NCBI GenBank assembly: GCA_002840095.1
Contig: PGZL01000003.1
Location: 223,664-274,176, forward strand
From: Gammaproteobacteria bacterium HGW-Gammaproteobacteria-1
GTDB taxonomy: Bacteria > Pseudomonadota > Gammaproteobacteria > Thiohalomonadales > Thiohalomonadaceae
Reading direction: 5' to 3'
Length of the DNA: 50,513 bases
The translations under genes were made by a program, and so were the position numbers. Each line of letters begins with the position of its first letter. Position 1 is the stretch's first letter. Below, piece by piece: positions 22,639-26,920 of the stretch. Under the pieces are notes generated by a model that ran no database searches, was not told where the DNA came from, and saw only the letters and a list, made by a program, of their open reading frames with translations.

Positions 22639-22707
22639 GGGTTTAGGGGCATTCTGCAAGAAAGGGACTATCCGGCGGGAAAGGTTTTCGTCCAGCAGGA
22701 GCTTCAT
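22603..22707 (-). pseudogene. Truncated DUF5615 PIN-like toxin
   Basis: Starting at an ATG that overlaps the antitoxin stop by four bases (ATGA), the frame reads MKLLLDENLSRRIVPFLQ, the typical N-terminus of DUF5615 PIN-like toxins with the first catalytic aspartate (D6). The similarity then ends near position 22650 at a degenerate AAGGGTTTAGGGG stretch, and the frame stops after 34 residues, running antisense into the small hypothetical gene. The remaining catalytic core (about 80 residues) is missing. Confidence 0.8.
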
Positions 22708-22931
22708 ACTGCATGTAATTCGCCGATGTGTCGCTCGCGATCCGTGGCAAATGCCAGGCATGCCTGGATATCTTCCAGTGCAAGTTCTGGGAAGTCGGCG
22801 ACTATTTCTTCCGGTGTTACACCTTCCGCCAGCTGGTCCAGGACATCATATACGGTGATTCGCAGCCCGCGGATACAGGGTTTTCCACCCCGTTTGCCGG
22901 GTTCAACAGTAATGTATTTGCGATAGTCCAT
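22704..22931 (-). CDS. DUF433 family antitoxin
   Basis: A 75-residue protein with the DUF433 core: YRKYITVEPGKRGGKPCIRG, ITVYDVLDQLAEGVTPEEI, then DFPELALEDIQACLAFA, a helix-turn-helix-like fold known as the antitoxin partner of DUF5615 toxins. AGGGAA precedes the ATG at 22931; an upstream ATG at 22961 is less likely. Its toxin partner is reduced to a stub, so the antitoxin is now an orphan, perhaps kept as protection against related toxins or simply not yet lost. Confidence 0.85.
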   Translation of the reverse strand: MDYRKYITVEPGKRGGKPCIRGLRITVYDVLDQLAEGVTPEEIVADFPELALEDIQACLAFATDRERHIGELHAV

Positions 22932-23000
22932 TGGGGTATTCCCTAGGGCGTTGAAATGCAATGAGGCTAGTCTGGTGGGGCTTGGCCGTCAACATTGAAT

Positions 23001-23225
23001 TCGGGTTCAAGGTTCAGGGTTCAGGGTTCAGGGGGCAGGTCAAAAGCGGGTTCAGGGTACAAGGTGCAGGTTAACGGCGGGTATAAAAGCGGGCTCAGGG
23101 TTCAGGGTTCAGGGTTCAGGGGGCAGGTTAAAAACGGGTTCAGGTAAAAGTGGGTTCAAGGGACAGGGTTCAGGTGAAGGCGGGTACAGGGAGTTTTTTT
23201 TACTTGAACCCTGAGCCTTGAGCCC
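23001..23225 (+). repeat. TTCAGGG heptamer array 3 with a terminal inverted piece
   Basis: Array of GGTTCAGG and GGGGCAGGTTAAAAGCGGG words to about 23190, a T7 run, then CTTGAACCCTGAGCCTTGAG at 23203-23222 in the opposite sense. The inverted piece can pair back on the array. It lies immediately upstream of the S23-type gene and fills the 22932-23247 gap. Confidence 0.88.
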
Positions 23226-23247
23226 GATTTTATCCAGGGAGGGAGTT

Positions 23248-23595
23248 ATGGCTCGATTTGAGGAGCTTGATGTTTGGAAGAAGTCGGCGCGGTTGAGTGC
23301 TGATATTTACAAGGCGCTGGTTTCGTTGAAGGACTATGGGTTTCGTGACCAGATAACCCGTTCGGGGTTGTCAATACCATCGAATATCGCCGAGGGGTAT
23401 GAACGGGAGTCGCCCAGGGAGATCGCTAATTTTCTGAATTATGCCAAGGGTTCTGCCGGTGAGTTACGCACCCAGATTTATATCGGGGTTGATATCGGAT
23501 ACATCAGCGTAGAGCACGGTAAGTTGTGGCTTGGGGAGGTCGAGTCCGTTTCCAAGATGCTGCATGCGCTGATCCGTAGTGTTAAAAAACGGTAA
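23248..23595 (+). CDS. Four-helix bundle protein (S23 / rRNA intervening-sequence family)
   Basis: A 115-residue all-helical protein of the family first found inside 23S rRNA intervening sequences (TIGR02436-like). Signatures visible: FEELDVWKKSARLSADIYKA, the GFRDQITRSGLSIPSNIAEG signature and YAKGSAGELRTQI. It forms oligomeric four-helix bundles in structures; its cellular role is unknown. GGAGGGAG just upstream of ATG 23248 sets the start. It is flanked on both sides by heptamer arrays, each with an inverted terminal piece, so it looks like a mobile or passenger cassette rather than part of the glycan operon. Confidence 0.88.
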   Translation: MARFEELDVWKKSARLSADIYKALVSLKDYGFRDQITRSGLSIPSNIAEGYERESPREIANFLNYAKGSAGELRTQIYIGVDIGYISVEHGKLWLGEVESVSKMLHALIRSVKKR

Positions 23596-24106: not shown

Positions 24107-24343
24107 ATGGATTCCCTTCTTGAGCAGATCATTGCCGATTTCCAAAAGCGGCCACTGCCGCAGCTCACTCGTCGTGCGGCCAAATTGCCTGGGCTTTCCG
24201 GCAAGATTGACACTGTTATTGGTATGCGCAGGACACCAGGAAGCGGCCATGTGGTGGTCTTACCAGGCCAAAGAAACCTGCATCTACAGCGTGTAAATAC
24301 ACGCTTGACATCCACTGTCTATTCATACATCTTTAGCCATTAA
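24107..24343 (+). pseudogene. Truncated AAA+ ATPase (AAA_14/DUF4143-type) N-terminus
   Basis: The first 42 residues (MDSLLEQIIADFQKRPLPQL then GKIDTVIGMRR) match the start of the DUF4143/AAA_14 ATPases, where GMRR is followed by the Walker A SGKT. Here it is followed by TPGSGHVVV and the frame ends after 78 residues without Walker A, Walker B or the DUF4143 domain. It is therefore a broken gene, cut or scrambled at the nucleotide-binding loop. Similarity judged by eye. Confidence 0.6.
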
Positions 24344-24344
24344 G

Positions 24345-24500
24345 AAAAAGCGCCACCCGGCGGTGCGGCAAACACCATCCGGGCGGCTAACCCCAAGACT
24401 GACTGAAGCAGAACTTGGGGCTGCGCGAGAGTATATCACCGGGTCCGGCCTTGGCTGGACCCCGGCTCGTCGAGCGGCCCCGTAAATCGGGGCCGTTTTC
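24345..24500 (+). ncRNA. Structured RNA candidate with four hairpins, possibly C4-like
   Basis: Four stems follow each other: CCCGG...CCGGG with inner GGTG/CACC (about 24356-24384), CCCCAAG/CTTGGGG (24391-24420), GGGTCC/GGACCC (24441-24462) and CGGCCCCG/CGGGGCCG with trailing TTTTC (24475-24499), the last an intrinsic terminator. It directly precedes a small gene with a very strong ribosome site. Phage C4 antisense RNAs lie in this position before ash/icd-type genes, so a C4-like element is plausible; this is an impression, not a match that could be tested here. Confidence 0.45.
24475..24499 (+). terminator. Intrinsic terminator
   Basis: Eight-base perfect stem CGGCCCCG/CGGGGCCG with loop TAAAT, followed by TTTTC. 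It ends the structured region upstream of the small gene at 24533. Confidence 0.65.
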
Positions 24501-24532
24501 GTTTGCGGCCCCACATTGAGCCAGGAGGGCTT

Positions 24533-24748
24533 ATGAACGGGACCGCCGATCGTAGTGGAGTTATTTTTTTTGATCCCCTTTCCCTGTGGGGGGGGCAATA
24601 CGCCGGGGAGCGGGGATCTATCCATACCCAGATCCGCAGCCTGCGGCCTTTAGTCCCCACGCCCCCACAGCCATTCCCTCCACCGTTATGCAGTCCTGCC
24701 CGCACGGGGCCTGTCGCCTGTAGATTGCCCATCGGCATTCGCCGTTAA
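24533..24748 (+). CDS. Small hypothetical protein (Ash/Icd-like?)
   Basis: A 71-residue frame preceded by the near-ideal ribosome site CCAGGAGGGC five bases before its ATG. The product is rich in Pro, Gly and Arg (PLVPTPPQPFPPPLC) and ends SPARTGPVACRLPIGIRR, a C-terminal word that recalls small Ash/Icd-type proteins of prophages; no fold is evident. It ends eight bases before the XRE gene and may be translated mainly to control that gene. Confidence 0.4.
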   Translation: MNGTADRSGVIFFDPLSLWGGQYAGERGSIHTQIRSLRPLVPTPPQPFPPPLCSPARTGPVACRLPIGIRR

Positions 24749-24756
24749 CTGCCGTC

Positions 24757-25041
24757 ATGGCTGGGGGAATGGCAAGGAGGCTGTTGGCGCAGAATGTACG
24801 CATTCTGCGGCTGACACGGGGTTGGTCACAGGAGGCGCTGGCCGAGGCGGCGGAGCTGGACCGTTCTTACGTGGGCGACATCGAGCGCGCCCGGCGCAAT
24901 GTCAGCCTGGATAGCGTGGAGCGGCTGGCACAGGCCTTCGGCCTGACGCTGATGGACCTGATACGCGAGCCCGACCCCGCCGAACTGGGGGCGCAGCTGC
25001 TGCGCAAGATATCGAGCGAAATAGCCAAGGAAGAGGACTGA
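24757..25041 (+). CDS. XRE-family HTH transcriptional regulator
   Basis: A 94-residue Cro/CI-type regulator with one helix-turn-helix: LAQNVRILRLTRGWSQEALA, then EAAELDRSYVGDIERARRNV and LDSVERLAQAFGLTLMDLI (residues about 9-67). The short acidic tail shows no sensor or protease domain. It is followed one base later by the diguanylate cyclase, so the two are translationally coupled, and the CsrA-like gene follows in turn. It probably controls its own operon. ATG 24769 is an alternative start. Confidence 0.85.
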   Translation: MAGGMARRLLAQNVRILRLTRGWSQEALAEAAELDRSYVGDIERARRNVSLDSVERLAQAFGLTLMDLIREPDPAELGAQLLRKISSEIAKEED

Positions 25042-25042
25042 C

Positions 25043-25945
25043 ATGGAACTCGTCAAAACCGGACAGGTGGCCCCTGCCGCCTGCGATCTGCCTGCTCTCA
25101 CATCGTATTTCTTCTACGCGGCGCGCCAGGGGATGATCCTCGCCGATGCCCAGTGCCGCATCGTTGCGGCCAACGTCGCGGCACAGCGCCTCACCGGCTA
25201 CCGCGAATCCGAACTGCTGGGACGGACGCCGGAGGTCTTCGACGGCGAGCGCTGCGGCGCGCAGGTCGTCCATCACATTCGATGCATCGTGCAGCGTGCC
25301 GGCCATTGGGAAGGCGAATTGTGGTGCTGCCGCAAGGACGGAACGCGCTATCCGCAGCAGACCAGCGTTACTCCTCTTCCCGGCGGCGGCTACGCGGCGG
25401 TGTTTGGCGACTCAACCGCACACCGGCAACAAGTGGAGACGCTGACCCGGCTGGCCTTTTACGATCCCCTGACCGGCCTGCCCAACCGCGCGTTGCTCAT
25501 GGACCGGCTGGGCCAGGCCCTGGTGCGGGCCGGCCGCCGCCACCGGAAGGCGGCGTTGCTGTTCGTCGATCTCGATGGCTTCAAGGCCATCAACGACGGC
25601 CACGGCCATGCCCTCGGCGACACTCTGCTCCAGGCCGCCGCCGACCGGCTGCGCGCCGTGGTGCGGGCGGAGGACACCGTGGCCCGCTACGGCGGCGATG
25701 AATTCGCCGTGTTGCTCGGCGAGATTGGGTCCGCAGACGATGCCGTCGACATCGCCGCAAAGGTGAGCGCCGTATTCTCCGGCCCCTTCCTGATCGACGG
25801 CAGGGAACATGTCGTGAGCCTCAGCGTAGGCGTCGCGCTGTTTCCCGATCATGCGGCCGGGGTGGCGGAGATGATCGAAATCGCCGATGCCGCCATGTAC
25901 CGCGCCAAGCGCGCCGGCAAGAGCGGCTACCAGATCGCCCGATGA
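25043..25945 (+). CDS. PAS-GGDEF diguanylate cyclase
   Basis: Makes c-di-GMP, the messenger that usually promotes exopolysaccharide production. The 300-residue soluble protein has an N-terminal PAS domain (about 20-128: GMILADAQCRIVAANVAAQR, RKDGTRYP) and a GGDEF domain (about 135-298) with DPLTGLPNR, DLDGFKAIND and the active-site GGDEF at 217-221. The inhibitory I-site RxxD is present as RAED (208-211), so product inhibition is expected. No membrane helix or signal peptide. Situated between two glycan gene sets and directly ahead of a CsrA-like gene. Confidence 0.92.
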   Translation: MELVKTGQVAPAACDLPALTSYFFYAARQGMILADAQCRIVAANVAAQRLTGYRESELLGRTPEVFDGERCGAQVVHHIRCIVQRAGHWEGELWCCRKDGTRYPQQTSVTPLPGGGYAAVFGDSTAHRQQVETLTRLAFYDPLTGLPNRALLMDRLGQALVRAGRRHRKAALLFVDLDGFKAINDGHGHALGDTLLQAAADRLRAVVRAEDTVARYGGDEFAVLLGEIGSADDAVDIAAKVSAVFSGPFLIDGREHVVSLSVGVALFPDHAAGVAEMIEIADAAMYRAKRAGKSGYQIAR

Positions 25946-25960
25946 CGAAAAGGAGTTCGT

Positions 25961-26200
25961 ATGGTGATCCTGACCAGGAAGGTGGGGCAGGCCATCCGCA
26001 TTGTGCCGGATGCAGACCTCGACCCGGCAACGCCCATCGGTGAGCTGTTCGTCGACGGCCCCATCAACGTAATCCTCGCCGGTACGGGCGAGGGACAGGC
26101 ACGCATGGTGGTCTACAGCGACAGCCGCTTCCTCGTGGCCGAGGATGAGCGTTTCAGCGGCCCGGACGACGAAGAGCTGGGCGAGGTGAAACCCGGATAG
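25961..26200 (+). CDS. Divergent CsrA/RsmA-like protein
   Basis: CsrA dimers bind GGA motifs in mRNA leaders. This 79-residue protein opens with MVILTRKVGQAIRI, the CsrA first strand, and residues 35-63 (INVILAGTGEGQARMVVY and on) align without gaps to E. coli CsrA residues from VTVTVLG to the HREE segment, keeping G41, Q46 and R48. About 20 residues (DADLDPATPIGELFVDG) are inserted between the first strands, and the RNA-contacting His43-Arg44 of CsrA are Ala60-Glu61 here. It may therefore bind RNA differently, bind a partner, or not bind RNA. AGGAG precedes the ATG; third gene of the XRE/GGDEF operon. Confidence 0.7.
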   Translation: MVILTRKVGQAIRIVPDADLDPATPIGELFVDGPINVILAGTGEGQARMVVYSDSRFLVAEDERFSGPDDEELGEVKPG

Positions 26201-26290
26201 CTCCCTCCCCATTGGATGGGGAGGGTTGGGGAGGGGGCTTCGGTAAGCACGCTCCCTCCCGGCCTCCCCCACGGTGTGGGGGAGGGGAAG
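26201..26290. repeat. Palindromic C/G-rich elements, two copies
   Basis: CTCCCTCCCCATTGGATGGG at 26201 and CTCCCTCCCGGCCTCCCCCA at 26252, each followed by its G-rich complement, right after the CsrA-like stop codon. The second copy shares 20 exact bases with the element inside the aminotransferase gene. Confidence 0.8.
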
Positions 26291-26393
26291 AGCTAAGCGA
26301 GTGTTCCGAATTCGTAACCAGGCATAGGGCGCCCCATGGGCGCCGCATCGCGCCAGAGGCGCTCCCACGATCCCGCGCCGCATGAGTCTTCGT

Positions 26394-26662
26394 TGTAGGA
26401 GCCGAGTCCTCTCGGCGAACAGGTGCCGGGTTTTGCGCTGCTTTGTTCCCCGGCGAATCGTTCGCCCACGGAGTGGCTTCTACGGGGATATTGCACATGT
26501 AGGAGCGAATCGTATTCGCGATGAATGGCCTTGTTTCGGCGTTCAATCTTCGCGAATACGATTCGCTCCTACAATTGTGCGGCAACAATGGTAGGAGCCA
26601 AGTCCTCTCGGCGAATGGCGGCCGGGATCTGGCGCTGATTCGCCCACGGAGTGGGCTCCTAC
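26394..26662. repeat. Composite of REP families C, A and C
   Basis: Family C at 26394-26483, the A pair at 26498-26574 and a second C at 26591-26662. The C-A part, including the linker GATATTGCACATGTAGGAGC, duplicates 7843-8006. Confidence 0.8.
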
Positions 26663-26752
26663 GAGCGGGGCTTTGTGGGGGTATGGTGCCGGGATTCTGG
26701 GCCGTATCGCCCGATGGTGGTTACGGACTTCCTGTCCTCAACCCCGACCCCG

Positions 26753-26920
26753 CTTTTAACCTGACCCCTGCCCCCTGACCCCTGACCCCTGACCCCTGAC
26801 CCCTGACCCCTGACCCCTGAACCCTGAACCCTGAACCCTGAACCCTGAACCCTGAACCCTGACCCCTGACCCCTGAACCCTGAACCCTGAACCCTGAACC
26901 CTGAACCCTGAACCCGCCTT
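26753..26920 (-). repeat. TTCAGGG heptamer array 5, inverted orientation
   Basis: About 20 head-to-tail CCCTGAA or CCCTGAC heptamers, the reverse complement of arrays 1-4. It begins with CGCTTTTAACCTGACCCCTG, the complement of the AGGTTAAAAGCG word of the other arrays, so the arrays are related and this one faces them across the 21-27 kb region. Confidence 0.9.

Follow-up and report, generated by a model that had tools for sequence, protein, structure and literature searches.

The locus raises the question of what a CsrA-like protein does when the arginine at its RNA-binding site is gone and its gene shares an operon with a DNA-binding regulator and a diguanylate cyclase. Proteins with the CsrA fold are familiar as binders of RNA. 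The operon lies in the window (the whole stretch of 50,513 nucleotides that was analysed) and contained three genes:

24757..25041, plus strand: XRE (Cro/cI-type HTH) regulator, 94 aa (Pfam HTH_3, 51.4 bits)
25043..25945, plus strand: soluble PAS-GGDEF diguanylate cyclase, 300 aa (Pfam GGDEF 154.9 bits, PAS_9 41.7 bits)
25961..26200, plus strand: RsmN/RsmF-type CsrA-like protein, 79 aa, with Glu61 at the RNA-binding Arg site (from profile, fold and alignment)

The layout described in an earlier, sequence-only reading held: the cyclase starts one base after the XRE gene and the CsrA-like gene 15 bases after the cyclase, AAAGGAG precedes the CsrA-like ORF, and the operon lies between glycan genes, with a sugar transferase and an epimerase upstream and a Wzy ligase and a flippase downstream. 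The GGDEF motif was intact (RYGGDEF; RAED-5-GGDEF read in the translation), with RAED as the RxxD that we take to be the inhibitory site, and judged by its intact GGDEF domain the soluble PAS-GGDEF protein is a predicted diguanylate cyclase. Just upstream of the operon, a small ORF at 22704-22961 (minus strand) resembled a DUF433-type antitoxin by eye and another at 23218-23595 (plus strand) a four-helix bundle, while a long palindrome at 26498-26575, GTAGGAGCGAAT..ATTCGCTCCTAC, appeared REP-like by eye.

The CsrA-like protein matched Pfam CsrA (PF02599) with 15.1 bits over residues 1-15 only and did not reach the cut-off of 27. Among its relatives, 19 of 20 matched the same family at E 10 or better (best 4e-14), and hhalign of a profile of the 20 against 17 classical CsrA sequences gave 99.0% probability with 17 residues inserted. 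A PDB profile search matched 11 distinct sequences, all CsrA or Rsm; the two PDB sequences of RsmN/RsmF were the only ones aligned over 2-68, and the best stretch of the others started at column 35. The AlphaFold model, built from the protein and 18 other rows (17 classical), had a pLDDT of 72 and a pTM of 0.50 and contained a short helix at 26-29 between strands 13-16 and 36-43. A single-sequence AlphaFold run was poor and uninformative (pLDDT 50). In Foldseek, RsmN/RsmF occupied the top four rows (E 0.002-0.03, probability 1.00), and in VIA it scored Z 7.0-7.3, values that alone can reflect a common arrangement and here stood well above the remaining entries (next 2.8). Classical CsrA chains were absent from the best 50 of 189 Foldseek rows and from the VIA list, an absence that does not argue for a different fold.

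The CsrA-related fold proposed earlier was supported by hhalign, the PDB profile match, the AlphaFold model and Foldseek. The proposed insertion of about 20 residues after strand 1 proved to be real, with its size corrected to 17 and its position to after the second short strand of the model. As a novelty it did not survive, since it matches the inserted helix of RsmN/RsmF and both profile and predicted fold prefer RsmN/RsmF to classical CsrA. By sequence and model, the 17-residue insertion is RsmN-type; the protein is called RsmN-type and not a member of RsmN because the equivalent of Arg62 is Glu61 (Pro in L025, the nearest other relative).

Matches to the CsrA-like protein were found in 3 of 20 genomes of the order, one of these being an artefact from a helicase gene, and in 16 of 369 genomes of the class, its own included, with two matches there. 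Twenty members aligned nearly gap-free with invariant M1, R6, F30 and P34, after a match inside a Rep-type helicase ORF (G013) and one in an 840-aa frame (G164) were left out. Searching 398 genomes of the phylum with the profile gave matches in 213; most of the matches listed span approximately columns 35-73, as classical CsrA would, and among the matches listed G721, G663, G427, G180 and G752, besides the genome itself, matched from column 2 through the insertion. One ORF of G358 (L203 1255-1866) carried two insertion-type CsrA-like domains, and in L032 (3569-4316) a classical csrA ORF followed an insertion-type CsrA-like gene within 2 bp.

Where CsrA has His43-Arg44 the sequence-only reading had noted Ala-Glu, and Ala60-Glu61 did align there. 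Across 46 distinct insertion-type domains, position 61 was Arg in 42, Glu in 2 (both copies in this genome), Pro in 1 (L025) and Cys in 1, and position 60 was His in only 2 of the 46. From these alignments, the loss of His is ordinary for the insertion type and the loss of Arg is not; of the two traits whose conservation the earlier reading asked about, the insertion was kept in relatives, whereas the missing Arg was found in only a few. L025, which carries the Pro, comes from the same genus as the window. The change extends to a loop, as Ala53-Pro54 is replaced by Ser-Asp in both copies and by Gly-Asp in L025; the equivalent CsrA loop touches RNA. Retained were the fold residues, Thr5, Arg6 and Lys7 of strand 1 and Arg48 (L025 has a changed strand 1, EFIRRE), together with the salt-bridge residues Arg6 and Glu63 at the positions aligned with RsmN Arg8-Glu64 (residues only, from the alignment). 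Gly33-Pro34-Ile35 follows the insert and may correspond to the Gly-Ile of RsmN, with one residue more. The net charge of the protein was -8; its acidic core of -4 is not diagnostic, as two Arg-keeping rows have -5.

With the GGA-binding surface apparently gone and the fold residues kept, the protein most likely acts by protein contact and not by GGA RNA binding. Against this it could be held that the protein still binds RNA with a new specificity, strand 1 (ILTRK) and Arg48 contacting RNA and the Ala-Glu side recognising a different motif, such as one in the transcript of its own operon. The four retained contact residues and the Arg kept in relatives are in line with that, as is the largely backbone-amide reading of GGA by RsmN described in PMC3791407; however, the two most telling contact sites are replaced by Glu61 and Ser-Asp, L025 has altered strand 1 too, and the charge is strongly negative, so that we consider this rather unlikely. 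According to the same paper, the R62A mutant of RsmN keeps its dimer and binds RsmZ-2 more than 1000-fold more weakly, and nine RsmN-like proteins with the insert in Pseudomonas have Arg in each (Morris et al., PMC3791407). The loss of Arg need not abolish function, because the same work found that swarming of an rsmA mutant was still rescued by the R62A protein.

At E 0.001 or better the genome had one Pfam CsrA match, in a frame of 66 aa at another position of the contig that carries the operon. An antagonist of this classical CsrA, acting through mixed dimers or by acidic RNA mimicry, would fit the negative charge and the retained R6 and E63. We judge it improbable, as the operon has no genetic link to csrA and RsmN, according to PMC3791407, is not domain-swapped like RsmA, which makes mixed dimers less likely. 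Protein contact is the preferred mode of action, with XRE as the first candidate partner.

A tree was built from 45 of the 46 insertion-type domains (two L203 domains shared one name) and 7 classical rows; it has few columns, many open forks and a long branch for L025. The window, its second copy and L025 formed one branch (100/98); its neighbours were L184 and L187 (96/86), and all of these fell within a 14-row clade supported at 87/82. An XRE gene lay within 1.2 kb in 13 of the 14 clade rows (L025 being the exception) and in none of the 31 other insertion-type rows, the loci taken from genome searches having 1.5 kb flanks only, some of which stop at contig edges; since the XRE profile was made from seven domains of six XRE-linked loci, 7 of these 13 rows were found independently of it. 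Within the same distance of classical csrA, XRE was found for 4 of 115 distinct ORFs, from three loci. In eight operons the XRE and CsrA-like genes were on the same strand with a gap of -4 to +3 bp. The XRE adjacency pointed out in the sequence-only reading is part of a unit of XRE and altered CsrA-like gene that is conserved in this one clade.

In L028 (6281-6802, minus strand), one ORF combines CsrA (41.5 bits) with a C-terminal HTH_31 (30.0 bits, cut-offs 27) and a divergent XRE gene lies 21 bp away. The L134 protein, from a Candidatus Muproteobacteria MAG, was 65% identical to that of L027. Several Muproteobacteria-type XRE-CsrA operons were preceded by an additional small HTH gene (HTH_17, 29.3 bits), for which no convincing match was found in the window, the second copy (L024) or L025. 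Several of these operons also lay close to genes that resembled purL or lytic transglycosylase by eye. In L130 (1450-2684) a classical csrA-like ORF, an XRE gene and a double CsrA-like ORF were consecutive. Carriage on mobile elements was set aside: the XRE-linked L027 protein had no plasmid or phage match at E 0.01, and of the 16 viral-contig loci matched none had the 17-residue insertion when their sequences were read. RNA binding may still be the rule among the XRE-linked relatives, because most keep the Arg. In the single library searched, no paper dealt with an XRE-CsrA operon and none with a SymR leader before another gene.

All three genes were duplicated on another contig of the same genome, with the CsrA-like protein 95%, the cyclase 96% and the XRE regulator 79% identical. 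The DNA of the two copies was 88.4% identical over 1934 bp, and similarity stopped at the CsrA-like stop codon. Between the copies, dN/dS was 0.128 for the CsrA-like gene (rough, from 5 and 11 changes); the cyclase and XRE genes gave 0.092 and 0.40. From this comparison, with few changes, the two CsrA-like copies are under purifying selection despite the loss of Arg (dN/dS 0.13), and the operon is more than chance because a second three-gene copy exists with low dN/dS between copies. A decaying, functionless paralogue carried along with a repeated XRE element would agree with the XRE ratio and with the loss of the downstream part in 8 of 10 XRE copies; the low ratios of the two other genes, their open reading frames in both copies and the kept fold residues speak against it, and we find it quite improbable.

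The XRE regulator had 11 matches in the genome, 10 of which (this one included) were 79-100% identical, and all ten stood behind one leader. The cyclase was missing from the eight other close XRE copies apart from short remnants: L232 and L236 retain approximately 28 bases of its start, and beyond these only the second copy matched the window. As two further XRE copies keep these remnants, duplication of the whole three-gene unit probably happened repeatedly, with its downstream part disappearing afterwards. The conserved three-part module with c-di-GMP proposed earlier was not upheld, as the two copies of this genome were the only ones with a cyclase separating XRE from the CsrA-like gene, and the XRE-CsrA pairs of other families were without one. 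After its copy, the best cyclase match in the genome was 44% identical, and there were 26 genome matches at E 1e-40 or better. By sequence comparison the cyclase looks like a local addition. As candidate conserved partners, the GGDEF genes near L181 (499 bp), L188 (86 bp) and L028 (946 bp) were set aside, their proximity being weak in GGDEF-rich genomes. The CsrA-like protein might instead be an adaptor that binds the cyclase from the same transcript or the cyclase product, and the 15-base spacing in both copies and the position of the XRE-less relative L188 behind a GGDEF-EAL gene would suit this; it is nevertheless very improbable given the cyclase-free pairs elsewhere and the abundance of GGDEF genes here.

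The leader shared by the ten XRE copies contained four features in the window:

24305..24330, plus strand: TTGACA, then a LexA-like box (24315-24330, CTGT-N8-ACAT, one mismatch to CTGT-N8-ACAG), from the sequence
24349..24422, minus strand: SymR-like antisense RNA with two hairpins and TTTTTC after the second (Rfam symR, 33.2 bits, E 8.6e-4)
24430..24435, minus strand: TATACT, possible -10 of the antisense RNA by its place just upstream of the RNA, in 12 of 12 leaders
24475..24495, plus strand: GC-rich hairpin followed by TTTTCGTTT, terminator-like as read from the sequence

The LexA-like box was present in 10 of 10 leaders of this genome (near-identical copies), and L240 has a perfect version; L239, L243 and L244 lack it. 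Such a box occurred by chance in 2.5% of shuffles of one 91-nt stretch. A promoter scan gave no sigma-70 promoter. The terminator scan gave a terminator-like site on the minus strand at 24370-24351; the hairpin at 24475..24495 was not among its sites and is missing in copy L232. Mean pairwise identity of the ten copies was 0.91 in the promoter and RNA core (24304-24440), 0.84 in the XRE coding region and 0.76 in the spacer ahead of it, and the RNA core (24320-24440, plus strand) was near-invariant in all 10 dispersed leaders of this genome and two of G016. A covariance model of these 12 leaders recovered the 12 and found none in 19 other sources scanned, including XRE-CsrA loci of other families. 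Against the 369 class genomes it gave matches in G000, G159 and G362, and leader counts there are lower bounds (9 candidates scored per genome, strict filters). No match to the leader pattern was found in viral contigs, nor to the leader DNA in plasmids.

The Rfam symR family (RF01809) was run on four of the ten leaders of this genome. Minus-strand matches occurred in 7 of 9 Rfam-scanned sources (the four leaders, one of them twice, one G016 leader and L243), all scores being under the gathering value of 61: 33.2 bits in the window, 33-39 for the four leaders and 47 for L243. L244 and the G016 leader L207 had no symR match at E 0.1. In L243 (from G159, which belongs to another family) the leader match overlaps the start of a SymE_toxin ORF (50.7 bits, cut-off 29), with symR on the minus strand. 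The structure of the leader RNA is supported by its folding energy (z -2.98) and the symR match; covariation was slight (1 of 25 pairs). A known riboswitch was rejected, as the window had no Rfam match at or over gathering and none of the 7 matches to E 1 (24200-26900) was a riboswitch. PMC1891008 describes LexA, SymR RNA and Lon as the repressors of SymE in E. coli and notes that SymE genes often lie beside Cro/cI HTH genes. No SymE gene was found behind the leaders here, where XRE follows instead, and we infer a SymE/SymR-type control region without SymE.

A strict scan of 11 loci for attC-like integron sites found 3 (against 0.08 per 8 kb in shuffles), all by other XRE copies (3 of 9 scanned): L230 -801..-743, L237 3726..3806 and L235 2735..2824 from the XRE start. 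The sites were textbook-like and surrounded by small ORFs, most of which run on the opposite strand, and none was found in the window or L024. The XRE elements may move as integron cassettes.

Our preferred reading, held tentatively at a little under even confidence, is that an RsmN-type protein turned from a GGA-RNA binder into a protein partner of XRE, and that its operon has captured a leader of the SymE/SymR type. The 79-aa protein would be a CsrA relative of the RsmN/RsmF type, belonging to a lineage in which the gene is coupled to an XRE gene; XRE would control the operon promoter, and the CsrA-fold dimer would modulate XRE or the operon transcript. In the genus of the window, the GGA-binding surface would have been lost (Glu or Pro in place of Arg, and Ser-Asp or Gly-Asp in place of Ala-Pro) with the fold residues staying, and the protein would act by contact with XRE as first candidate. 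The soluble PAS cyclase between both genes would add c-di-GMP output in this genome. Transcription would start behind the leader with its LexA-like box and SymR-like antisense RNA, a leader that probably derives from a toxin locus of the SymE/SymR type, the toxin gene having disappeared, and sequence alone suggests damage induction and antisense control. It is possible, though on the doubtful side, that XRE-CsrA pairs form a class of two-part regulators in which a dimer with the CsrA fold gave up RNA binding for the co-regulation of a DNA-binding regulator, and to which a cyclase as well as the SOS promoter and antisense RNA of a lost SymE/SymR locus were added in this genus, giving a damage-triggered c-di-GMP output. 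The XRE-tied lineage, with one fusion and an Arg-less sub-branch under apparent purifying selection, offers a direct test of whether the CsrA fold works by protein contact. From the leader one can picture how the control region of a toxin-antitoxin system may outlive its toxin and be copied before other genes, and its RNA core, a SymR-like element before an XRE gene, is worth separate study.

Compared with known systems, the leader (and the leader only) resembles the SymE/SymR type I toxin-antitoxin in the sequence of its antisense RNA, the two-hairpin form and the LexA-like box; it differs in having no SymE gene, in its symR score under gathering and in the XRE gene that comes next. The csrA paralogues of Legionella ICEs (csrT and lvrC clusters) presumably adjoin small regulators likewise, but would differ in lying on mobile elements and in being without this insertion. 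Classical CsrA, RsmA and RsmE share homologous strands with the CsrA-like protein (hhalign 99.0%), but have His43-Arg44 and no insertion, and the protein here is below the Pfam CsrA cut-off. Closest was RsmN/RsmF of Pseudomonas aeruginosa (4kji, 4krw, 4k59), with the same full-length profile match through the insertion, the best structural matches, approximately 16 inserted residues with a helix between strands 2 and 3 (17 here), what may be a Gly-Ile-like turn after the insert (GPI here) and Arg6 and Glu63 kept; the protein of this operon is set apart from it by Glu for Arg62, the extra Pro in this possible Gly-Ile turn, an acidic 15-residue tail and its place in an XRE-linked operon.
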